Below, piece after piece: positions 24,071 to 27,762 of a DNA stretch of 33,788 nt. The position numbers and the translations under genes were made by a program. Numbering within the stretch: position 1 is the stretch's first letter; each line of letters starts with the position of its first letter. This DNA is from Candidatus Niyogiibacteriota bacterium (GTDB taxonomy: Bacteria; Patescibacteriota; Minisyncoccia; JACROR01): assembly GCA_016214345.1 (NCBI GenBank), contig JACROR010000020.1, forward strand, positions 1 through 33,788. The letters are read 5' to 3'. The notes beneath the pieces were generated by a model that saw nothing but the letters and a program-made list of their open reading frames with translations, was not told where the DNA came from and made no database searches.

Positions 24071-25795
24071 TTATCTGTCCGGCAAAATCTGATAATAATT
24101 CAATAAAAAATGCATGGCATCCATAAAAGTCGCGGTCAATGATTGAGAAGCATACCTGACTCCCTGCGGTTTTTCAAGGTAAAGAAATATCAAAAATTTA
24201 GGGTCAAATCCCGGGGCGTAACCAAAAAACGTATGCACCATTTCGTCAGAATACCCTCCGCCGCCCGATTTAGGAATAAACGCCGTGCCGGTTTTAGCGG
24301 CCATAGTATAATGAGGATCTTTCACCGTACCGCCCGCCAGCGCTTCATCCACCACGCGAACCAACATGCGGTTTATGATTTCGGAAGTTTCTTTTTTCAA
24401 AACACGGCGAACTTCTGTTGGTTTTGTAATCTCGTCCGGTTGTCCAGGTTTGATAATTCTGTCCACTATATACGGCTTCATAATGACCCCGCCGTTCGCC
24501 AACGCGGAAAAGGCGCGCGCCGCGCCAAGAGCGGTCACCGAAATCCCCTGGCCGTAGGACGCGGTGGCGTATTCAATATCGCGATTCGTATCCAAATTGG
24601 ACATGCTTCCCACCACTTCATCGGGCAACTCAATGCCCGTCTTTTCATCAAGCCCGTAATTAACCATATAATCGTAAAAATTTTCCTTGCCCAGCTGTTG
24701 CATGGCAAAAACCGCGCCAGTATTCAAAGACTCATCCAAAACTTTTTGCATATCAACTTCTCCCCTGCCTTTTCCGTCGTAATTCGCTATGCGTCTGCCG
24801 TTTAACACCAAAAATCCGTAATCGTGGTATTTAGTTTCCGGAGTAATAACGCCCCGGTCTATCGCCGCGGCGAGCGTCAGCGGCTTAAATACCGAGCCTA
24901 TTTCGTAAACTTTTTCTACCGACGGATTCATGAAAGCATTGATATTTTTGGTGTCCTGATAATTATTGGGATCAAAATCGGGCAAGGCCGCCATGGCAAG
25001 AATTTTTCCGGTGGACGGCTCAATCACTATGCCGCCCGCGCTCTCCGCACTCCACTTTTTTTTGACGTCACTTAACGCTTTTTCTAAAAACAATTGCGCG
25101 TCTATGTTCAAGGTGAGCACTATATCATTACCTTCTTCCGGCGCTTCAAATATTCTTTTCCACAGATCAATCAAAAAACCCTGCGCTGAACGCGCGCCCT
25201 GCGCATATCCGCCCTTACCCGACAATTGGCCGTCAAAATACCGCTCTATGCCGTACCGCCCCTCCAATTTATCGCCATTATAACCTACAAATCCAATCAC
25301 TTGAGACGCCGCCTCGCCCGCCGGATAATAACGCCACTCTGCCGGCACAATACCTACTCCTTCAATGTTCAAATTTTTAATTTTCTCAGCCGGTTCGCGG
25401 CCCACATGAGAAACTATAATTTCATACGGATCATCTTTTTTTGCCAAACGCCCCATAAAATAATCGCGATCCATAGTTATTATTCCGCTAATTCGCTCAA
25501 ATAAAGCATCCGTGTCCGCGCGCCTGTCATTTAACATCTTCGGATTAACATAAATGTCATATCCCTCTTTAACGCCGGCGACCGCGACGCGCTCACCTTC
25601 TTTGTTCTGAATATAAATACTGCCGCGGCGCGGAGCCAGTTCCTTGGAATAATTATGCTGACGACCGGCCAGCACTTGATAATAATCTCCCGACACAATC
25701 TGTAAAAAAAACAAGCGGGTCATAACCAGGCCGGCCGCGGATACTAAAATTATAAATATCCATTTAATTCTTCCGACGCTCGTTCTATGCATCAC
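24071..25795 (-). CDS. ftsI: Penicillin-binding protein FtsI-like (division transpeptidase)
   Basis: APRRGSIYIQNKEG, EIGSVFKPLTLAAAID (SxxK), DESLNTGAVF (SxN), AAKTGTAFIPKSGGGGYSDEMVHTFFGYAPG (KTG). Confidence 0.93.
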   Translation of the reverse strand: MMHRTSVGRIKWIFIILVSAAGLVMTRLFFLQIVSGDYYQVLAGRQHNYSKELAPRRGSIYIQNKEGERVAVAGVKEGYDIYVNPKMLNDRRADTDALFERISGIITMDRDYFMGRLAKKDDPYEIIVSHVGREPAEKIKNLNIEGVGIVPAEWRYYPAGEAASQVIGFVGYNGDKLEGRYGIERYFDGQLSGKGGYAQGARSAQGFLIDLWKRIFEAPEEGNDIVLTLNIDAQLFLEKALSDVKKKWSAESAGGIVIEPSTGKILAMAALPDFDPNNYQDTKNINAFMNPSVEKVYEIGSVFKPLTLAAAIDRGVITPETKYHDYGFLVLNGRRIANYDGKGRGEVDMQKVLDESLNTGAVFAMQQLGKENFYDYMVNYGLDEKTGIELPDEVVGSMSNLDTNRDIEYATASYGQGISVTALGAARAFSALANGGVIMKPYIVDRIIKPGQPDEITKPTEVRRVLKKETSEIINRMLVRVVDEALAGGTVKDPHYTMAAKTGTAFIPKSGGGGYSDEMVHTFFGYAPGFDPKFLIFLYLEKPQGVRYASQSLTATFMDAMHFLLNYYQILPDR

Positions 25796-26153: not shown

Positions 26154-27050
26154 TTATCGCATGGAAATTTTTACTGCTGCCCGCAATTTTGCTGATCGCG
26201 CTCGCGGATTTCGCAACAATTCTTCTTTTACCGCCACTATCGGTTTTTTAGTCAATATTTCCGCTTCGTCGTTCTGCTTGTTGTCTCTGAAAAAATTTTT
26301 AACGATCCGGTCTTCCAGCGAATGAAAAGAGATGACCGCCATTCTGCCGTTTGGAGAAAGCAGATTCCACCCTCCCGCCAACCCTTCCCGTAAAACGCCC
26401 AATTCGTCATTTACCGTTATACGCAAAGCTTGAAAGGCGCGCGTGGCGGGATTTATTCTTCCTCGCTCATAATTTTTAGGGACAGCCGATCGGATAATTT
26501 CCGCCAATTCCACCGTGCGGCGAATTCGCCCTCTTCGTCTCTCTTCCGCGATACGCCGCGCGATCCTTCCAGCAAACCGCTCTTCGCCATAAACGCGGAT
26601 AATTTCTTTCAAGCGGTCCTCCGGCCAATCATTCACGATCTTTTCCGCGGTCAAATCTTCCGGCCCCAGATCGCGCCTCAAAGTCATAAGAAGCGGCTCG
26701 TCTTTCGTAAAAGAAAATCCCCTACCCGACTCTTCCAATTGCAAAGAACTGAATCCCAGATCATACAAAATTCCATCAACCGTCCCCGCATACTCCGAAA
26801 GCAAACTACCGATATCGCGAAAATTTCCGTGGATAAATTCCGTTCGCTTATCTTTGCCGAATTTTTGGCGCAATCTTTCTATCATCTCTTCGTCTTGATC
26901 AAGGCCGATCATTTTTCCGTCTTCCGGCAATCGTTTCAAAATCTCCTCCAAATGGCCTCCGCCGTCCGCCGTCGTGTCCACAAATATTTTACCTTGCGAA
27001 ATATCCAGCAACCGTATAACTTCTTCTAAAAGAACGGGCACATGCGCCAT
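26154..27050 (-). CDS. rsmH: 16S rRNA (cytosine1402-N4)-methyltransferase RsmH
   Basis: HVPVLLEEVIRLL, FVDTTADGGGHLEEIL, GILYDLGFSSLQLEESGRGFSF, NPATRAFQALRITVNDEL, SFHSLEDRIVKNFF. Confidence 0.96.
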   Translation of the reverse strand: MAHVPVLLEEVIRLLDISQGKIFVDTTADGGGHLEEILKRLPEDGKMIGLDQDEEMIERLRQKFGKDKRTEFIHGNFRDIGSLLSEYAGTVDGILYDLGFSSLQLEESGRGFSFTKDEPLLMTLRRDLGPEDLTAEKIVNDWPEDRLKEIIRVYGEERFAGRIARRIAEERRRGRIRRTVELAEIIRSAVPKNYERGRINPATRAFQALRITVNDELGVLREGLAGGWNLLSPNGRMAVISFHSLEDRIVKNFFRDNKQNDEAEILTKKPIVAVKEELLRNPRARSAKLRAAVKISMR

Positions 27051-27053
27051 AAA

Positions 27054-27488
27054 TTAATACGCGCCCAACTCGCCCAAACGCTCCGCCAAAACATCGGCAT
27101 CTTTTTCAACTTCATCGCGATATTTGTTCCATCTCTCCTCGTCCCAAATTTCCAAGCGTTTATAAACTCCGCAAATTATCACTTTTTCTTTAAGCTCCGC
27201 GTATTTTTTCAAATAATCCGGAATTAAAATTCTTCCCAACTGATCCATGTCTGCCTCGGACGCGCCAGCCAGAAAAAATCTCGCGTTATCTCTCTTATCT
27301 TTTTGATTCATGGACAGAGTGCTTAATTTTTCGGCAAATTTGCTCCACTCATAAAGCGGATAAACAAAAAGGCACTTGTCCAGGCCCCTGGTAATGATCG
27401 CCTGCTTGCCCAATTCCTTCCTGAACTTGGCAGGCAAGGAAACTCTTTTTTTGGCGTCTAATGTATGTGTAAATTCACCGATTAGCAT
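27054..27488 (-). CDS. mraZ: Transcriptional regulator MraZ
   Basis: MLIGEFTHTLDAKKRVSLPAKFRKELG, ARFFLAGASEADMDQLGRILIPDYLKKYAEL; start at MLIGEF. Confidence 0.94.
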   Translation of the reverse strand: MLIGEFTHTLDAKKRVSLPAKFRKELGKQAIITRGLDKCLFVYPLYEWSKFAEKLSTLSMNQKDKRDNARFFLAGASEADMDQLGRILIPDYLKKYAELKEKVIICGVYKRLEIWDEERWNKYRDEVEKDADVLAERLGELGAY

Positions 27489-27490
27489 AG

Positions 27491-27581
27491 TTATGCACTT
27501 TATCCACAGATTTATCCACAATTTCCCACTACACTAATATCATATCCCACTTTACCAAGTGCGTCAAAACACTTATACACA
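27491..27581 (+). promoter_or_regulatory. DnaA-box cluster upstream of mraZ
   Basis: TTATCCACA at 27500-27508 and 27512-27520, TTATACACA at 27573-27581 (all TTATNCACA), near-match TTATGCACT at 27491-27499; all same orientation. Confidence 0.7.
27507..27550 (-). promoter_or_regulatory. Putative MraZ operator (repeated GTGGG/GTGGA boxes)
   Basis: On the minus strand GTGGG starts at 27550 and 27529, GTGGA at 27519 and 27507 (spacings 21, 10, 12). Confidence 0.45.
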
Positions 27582-27681: not shown

Positions 27682-27701
27682 CCTGCCTGCCGGCAGGCAG
27701 G
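27682..27701. repeat. CCTGCC-family palindrome nested in a CGGCTAT-type hairpin
   Basis: cctgcctgccggcaggcagg, perfect palindrome; removing it leaves CGGCTAT-TGG-ATAGCCG. Confidence 0.85.
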
Positions 27702-27721
27702 TTGGATAGCCGAAAAACAAA

Positions 27722-27752
27722 AAAACCAGTCCGCCTAGGGCGGACTGGTTTT
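27722..27752 (-). terminator. Rho-independent terminator downstream of lysS
   Basis: AAAACCAGTCCGCC-TAG-GGCGGACTGGTTTT perfect arms, T-rich tract on the minus strand. Confidence 0.9.
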
Positions 27753-27762
27753 ATCTTGAAAT

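Follow-up and report, generated by a model that had tools for sequence, protein, structure and literature searches.

The division-cluster promoter of this Patescibacterium carries exact matches to the DnaA box woven into the operator of the repressor MraZ, and the best explanation, which we consider probable on sequence grounds, is that MraZ repression and DnaA control meet at this one promoter. DnaA likely binds at the boxes; that DnaA is the binder, the sign of its regulation and its competition with MraZ are what we infer. For Paceibacteria at large we lean slightly towards the view that sites for DnaA and MraZ overlap within a single promoter, a built-in coupling of replication to division that would have been kept across many lineages of ultra-small bacteria. 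In about 40% of the class members sampled, the division-cluster promoter has a DnaA-box element at a nearly fixed place, intertwined with the MraZ operator, and we found no prior link of DnaA boxes to mraZ in the open-access literature searched. The element bears on how bacteria tie division to the initiation of replication, and its natural variants (sense, antisense and absent) offer a concrete, testable site in bacteria whose cell cycle has hardly been studied.

The mraZ promoter and its operator

The window, the whole stretch of 33,788 nucleotides that was analysed, contains three genes whose order is the head of a division and cell-wall cluster, with lysS as the upstream neighbour of mraZ:

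27054..27488, minus strand: mraZ, 144 amino acids (Pfam PF02381 MraZ, E = 1.2e-37; PDB relatives 1n0e, 9qlr, 9qlg and 9sx6)
26154..27050, minus strand: rsmH (mraW), the gene after mraZ (Pfam PF01795, 1e-93)
24071..25795, minus strand: ftsI-like penicillin-binding protein of the division cluster (Pfam Transpeptidase and PBP_dimer)

We took the ATG at 27488 (minus strand) as the start of mraZ; the open reading frame listing had an earlier TTG start. Relatives of the MraZ protein at 54–71% identity belong to Candidatus Tagabacteria, Niyogibacteria, Giovannonibacteria, Sungbacteria and other Parcubacteria, and the host is a Patescibacterium of the Paceibacteria/Parcubacteria kind. The spacer between lysS and mraZ also holds, at 27684–27755 of the window, a palindromic CTGCCTGCCGGCAGGCAGG and a strong hairpin flanked by A/T runs (AAAACCAGTCCGCCTAGGGCGGACTGGTTTT), probably the lysS terminator.

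Between 3 and 93 bases ahead of the mraZ start codon, the plus strand has TTATCCACA twice, at 27500 and at 27512, and TTATACACA once, at 27573, the last being the third exact match to TTATNCACA; TTATGCACT lies alongside them at 27491. The three exact TTATNCACA boxes span 82 bp and match the consensus TTWTNCACA. The sequence-only reading had described three perfect boxes plus TTATGCACT in one orientation, exactly as we find them, and its expectation of about one such 9-mer per window agrees with the mean of 1.10 in dinucleotide-preserving shuffles; the window has five TTATNCACA, a number reached in 0 of 100 shuffles. Across the whole genome (691 kb, 32 contigs) we counted 42 TTATNCACA against 14 for the pattern read backwards, and the cluster upstream of mraZ is the only TTATNCACA trio within 100 bp in these 691 kb.

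These boxes are distributed over a promoter whose elements, all on the mraZ strand, are given below, with repeat offsets counted from the first base of the −10 and GTGG starting at −6, +15, +25 and +37:

27573..27581, minus strand: upstream element TTATACACA (TGTGTATAA on the mraZ strand), a putative DnaA box lying 5 bp ahead of the −35
27562..27567, minus strand: −35 hexamer TTGACG, from sequence, with a 17-bp spacer to the −10
27547..27550, minus strand: MraZ repeat GTGG at −6 (102 hits over 151 promoters, a peak partly favoured by the promoter finder)
27539..27544, minus strand: −10 hexamer TATGAT, from sequence
27526..27529, minus strand: MraZ repeat GTGG at +15, inside AGTGGGAAATTGTGG (78 hits over 151 promoters)
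27512..27520, minus strand: MraZ repeat at +25 and at the same time an exact DnaA box, TGTGGATAA (109/156 promoters have GTGG at +25, in 34 cases as TGTGGATA)
27500..27508, minus strand: off-register repeat at +37, an exact DnaA box TGTGGATAA (GTGG at +37 in 36/156 promoters, 26 of them TGTGGATA)
27491..27499, minus strand: degenerate fourth unit AGTGCATAA at +46 (TTATGCACT on the plus strand); relatives, for example the same-family genome G001, carry GTGGATAAC at +46

Read along the mraZ strand, the order is TGTGTATAA (27581–27573), TTGACG, the 17-bp spacer, TATGAT, GTGGGAAATT, GTGGATAAATCT, GTGGATAA and AGTGCATAAC, followed by T and the ATG. Transcription of mraZ is predicted to start at about 27532.

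Immediately ahead of the mraZ gene the window thus has direct repeats of GTGG/TGGG on a single strand, spaced by about 10 bp. We counted GTGG upstream of mraZ in the window and 100 relatives (101 regions) and found 463 copies on the mraZ strand versus 65 on the other; the distances between pairs of GTGG, a measure independent of promoter calling, peak at 10, 21, 31 and 41–43 bp. Counted from the −10, GTGG in class promoters peaks at −37, −27, −16, −6, +15, +25, +35 or +37, +46 and +57, the −6 peak being in part a product of the promoter finder, which scores GTGG close to the −10 favourably. In the phylum's other classes GTGG stands at −6, +14/15, +24/25, +34/35 and +45, with no peak at +37. 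We regard the cluster as almost certainly the promoter and MraZ autoregulatory operator of mraZ, and on sequence we read the boxes at 27512 and 27500 as repeats of the array turned into TGTGGATAA. The MraZ array around the downstream boxes had been overlooked by the sequence-only reading; this array alone explains their common orientation and near contiguity.

The operator resembles those of E. coli and Mollicutes in having direct repeats on one strand below the −10 of mraZ's own promoter. With E. coli it shares the spacing of about 10 bp between GTGG repeats, which stand at +13, +23 and +33 in an array without DnaA boxes, and the 15 bases of AGTGGGAAATTGTGG are identical upstream of mraZ in E. 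coli K-12. Eraso et al. 2014 reportedly described the E. coli operator as TGGGN repeats. For Mollicutes, AAAGTG[T/G] repeats (Fisunov et al. 2016) are quoted in PMC8475190. Unlike these two operators, the present one has its third repeat shifted by 2 bp (+37 rather than +35), its second and third repeats read as exact DnaA boxes, and an extra box lies upstream of the −35.

An upstream box at a nearly fixed position across the class

We examined 89 class promoters, selected regardless of whether they had a box. In 34 of them the 45 bp ahead of the −35 contained an exact TTATNCACA, compared with 0.19 (maximum 1) in dinucleotide shuffles, and none of the 89 had a reversed word in that interval. 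Together with the named loci these promoters form a non-redundant set of 151, in which 61 have an exact upstream TTATNCACA (31 antisense, 31 sense) and about 60% do not; these promoter sequences are related, and the counts are not independent events. The positions are narrow, at −42 to −40 from the −10 for antisense and about −38 for sense boxes in the 151 promoters. Exact upstream copies numbered 49 against 0.02 for permuted words, and when MraZ proteins were clustered at 80% identity, 47 of 108 clusters had an upstream box. One-base variants of this box concentrate at positions 1, 3 and 5 (22 of 28), where DnaA boxes tolerate change.

Under a loose promoter pattern such a box accompanies 37% of mraZ-type promoters versus 1.4% of other promoters in the same DNA, and under a strict pattern 12/46 versus 4/41, the last figure including L019, which is itself an mraZ promoter. 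In other classes of the phylum 9/59 mraZ promoters have a box, at scattered positions, so that the fixed upstream element mainly characterises this class. The boxes upstream of mraZ that the sequence-only reading had proposed to look for in relatives recur (61/151 class promoters with an exact upstream box). Its proposal that DnaA acts directly on the division cluster finds support in the box at 27573, which belongs to a class-enriched upstream element found in both orientations, and is plausible for the two downstream boxes. Chance as the origin of the cluster is ruled out by the shuffles, the genome-wide uniqueness of the trio and the enrichment in class promoters.

In some relatives (minus strand of L246 and L266) a promoter-like site faces the other way, with its −35 next below the mraZ upstream box as well, an arrangement in which one box could serve two promoters.

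MraZ and probable DnaA sites as separate layers

A simpler account would have MraZ alone bind, the DnaA-box look reflecting a lineage-specific MraZ preference for GTGGATAA. It would fit the single strand and the near-10.4-bp register of all boxes in the window, the phasing of sense upstream boxes with the MraZ repeats (GTGG at −37), and the E. coli array, which is the same but has no DnaA boxes. One in two upstream boxes, however, is antisense and occupies an almost constant position, and these antisense boxes are outside the MraZ array because its repeats share one strand. The upstream box of the window, TGTGTATAA, has T where the MraZ core needs G and is without GTGG. In 156 promoters the ATAA extension of GTGG (TGTGGATA) was concentrated at −37 (22/36), +25 (34/109) and +37 (26/36), was rare at +35 (4/32) and −27 (2/13), and was never found at −16 (0/29), −6 (0/106) or +15 (0/81); it therefore reflects no general MraZ preference. 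The antisense boxes and the position-restricted ATAA weaken MraZ preference as the source of an artefact, and dnaA loci, which have no GTGG array, are enriched in this word too, as described below. We judge the MraZ-only account unlikely, and some sense upstream copies may double as MraZ repeats.

That the word is a DnaA box is suggested by the dnaA loci themselves. We scanned 250 bp upstream of dnaA and the dnaA–dnaN spacer in 31 class genomes and found 23 TTATNCACA sites in 16/31 loci versus 1.2 in shuffled sequence. The commonest 9-mer with at least three G/C around dnaA in these genomes was TGTGGATAA, followed by TTTTCCACA; TTATCCCCA occurred seven times against 0.13 shuffled, and GTGGN6GTGG was absent around dnaA in the 31 genomes. 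The host genome's own dnaA spacers held no exact box, only near matches. Separately, GGGGATAAC elements (TTATCCCC) recur downstream of the −10 in class mraZ promoters (for example L029, L036, L087 and L220), mostly at about +57; the GGGGATAAC word is enriched at dnaA loci (7 of 31), and comparison of these sites suggests a DnaA-box variant of the class.

Domain IV residues R399, R407, D433, H434 and T436 (E. coli numbering), which we take to be the positions by which E. coli DnaA reads its box, are conserved or nearly so in the class. The sole dnaA of the host genome is split (L009 551–1671, contig C8, about 74757–75877): a stop after ...EFIASYI and a frameshift into REDFNGSYPYIGQKFGGRDHTT, with TAAGAGAG at the junction, leave it about 92 codons short of its counterpart in the same-family G001 (L216), with part of the DNA-binding domain missing, and relatives are intact. 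This break may be an assembly error, a deletion in a sub-population or a real lesion; if it is real, DnaA binding in this organism would be impaired.

For the two proteins acting together we propose the following. With high confidence, and as an arrangement of a known kind, MraZ would bind GTGG repeats one helical turn apart on one strand, from the promoter interior into the leader and covering the −10 and the transcript start, and so repress its own operon. The lineage would have added DnaA boxes to this operator, one just upstream of the −35 and usable either way round, and one or more further boxes among the downstream repeats, two of which are exact boxes here. From the upstream box, at roughly −41 to −49 relative to the predicted start, DnaA would be in a position to contact RNA polymerase, either activating transcription or getting in the way. 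At +25/+37 it would overlap MraZ and the initially transcribed region, competing with MraZ and blocking transcription when abundant. A dual response is plausible, in which a few DnaA molecules activate and many repress. Expression of the division genes would then track the level or state of DnaA and thus be tied to replication initiation. Seven genomes in our set are without mraZ, and only three of these retain rsmH, in copies that are incomplete or at or near contig ends.

In B. subtilis, ftsL lies within the mraZ-rsmH-ftsL-pbpB operon. Its promoter region is DnaA-bound in vivo (Goranov et al. 2005, cited in PMC8203912), a DnaA link to a homologous operon like the one proposed here; the part of PMC8203912 that bears on it describes no conserved architecture of box plus MraZ repeats there. 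DnaA-regulated promoters include those of E. coli nrdAB and dnaA and of Caulobacter ftsZ, gcrA and mipZ (review PMC8203912), and E. coli nrdAB is activated by few DnaA molecules and repressed by many (PMC8203912). With these the mraZ promoter has boxes beside the core promoter in common, and Caulobacter ftsZ, like the mraZ cluster, is a division gene as a proposed DnaA target. The present case differs in that the putative target is mraZ, at the head of the division cluster, and the boxes overlap the operator of another repressor.

Origin, titration and other box sites

Dense DnaA boxes away from dnaA might instead mark a chromosomal or secondary replication origin at mraZ, the other option offered by the sequence-only reading. 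In the host, dnaA-dnaN is on another contig than mraZ and has an AT-rich spacer. The host genome is in 32 contigs, and we judged GC skew in G056, a complete, single-contig relative whose mraZ promoter shows the same trio, at 60079, 60148 and 60169. In 20 sampled stretches of G056, two of which were N, skew is below zero as far as 532 kb and above zero from 560 kb on, with dnaA at 551.6 kb; one interior stretch, at 320 kb, does not follow this trend. The opposite turn falls between 52 and 160 kb, and mraZ (60.4 kb) is on that side, about 345 kb from dnaA by the shorter arc. Inspection found no AT-rich unwinding element with a DnaA-trio beside the boxes. The candidate tract TTTCCCACTACACTAATATCATATC, earlier likened to an origin spacer and trinucleotide tract, is on the mraZ strand the −10 TATGAT (27544–27539) plus two GTGGG repeats. 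The skew minimum thus lies at dnaA, as the sequence-only reading had allowed, and the lack of conservation at mraZ that it had paired with such a minimum is clearly not what we see. An oriC at mraZ is ruled out by GC skew and the location of dnaA in G056, and we find an origin of either kind at this locus scarcely credible.

The boxes share with datA/DARS-type clusters that they are DnaA boxes away from the origin. Unlike the boxes here, such clusters are not known to form part of a division operon's core promoter. DnaA might nevertheless bind in a datA-like manner, for titration or replication timing and with little effect on mraZ transcription. The mraZ promoter of G056 is the densest TTATCCACA cluster of its chromosome and no TTATCCACA lies within 15 kb of its dnaA, and titration is established for non-origin boxes in E. 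coli (PMC12371093). The nearly fixed position relative to the −35 and −10 nevertheless points to promoter function, and three to five boxes are few beside the genome's other boxes; we consider titration as the main role quite improbable and retain DnaA control of the promoter as the preferred reading.

A transcription factor other than DnaA could also use the TTATCCACA word at the mraZ promoter. In the host genome, intergenic TTATCCACA is found ahead of a B12-type ribonucleotide reductase (nrdJ), a prepilin gene, the divergent pair of pilM and a comF-like gene, and a UvrD-type helicase (loci L151 (1429), L155 (1451), L154 (1376) and L146 (1567)), a set atypical for one known DnaA regulon. Identity to the DnaA consensus, DnaA-like positional tolerance and enrichment at dnaA nonetheless make DnaA the economical choice, and we hold another factor to be very improbable. 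A box-like word lay in the 250 bp upstream of nrdJ in 5/14 genomes, which is weak as a check on a regulon; a DnaA regulon including competence and pilus genes is possible in the host genome, judging from these sites.
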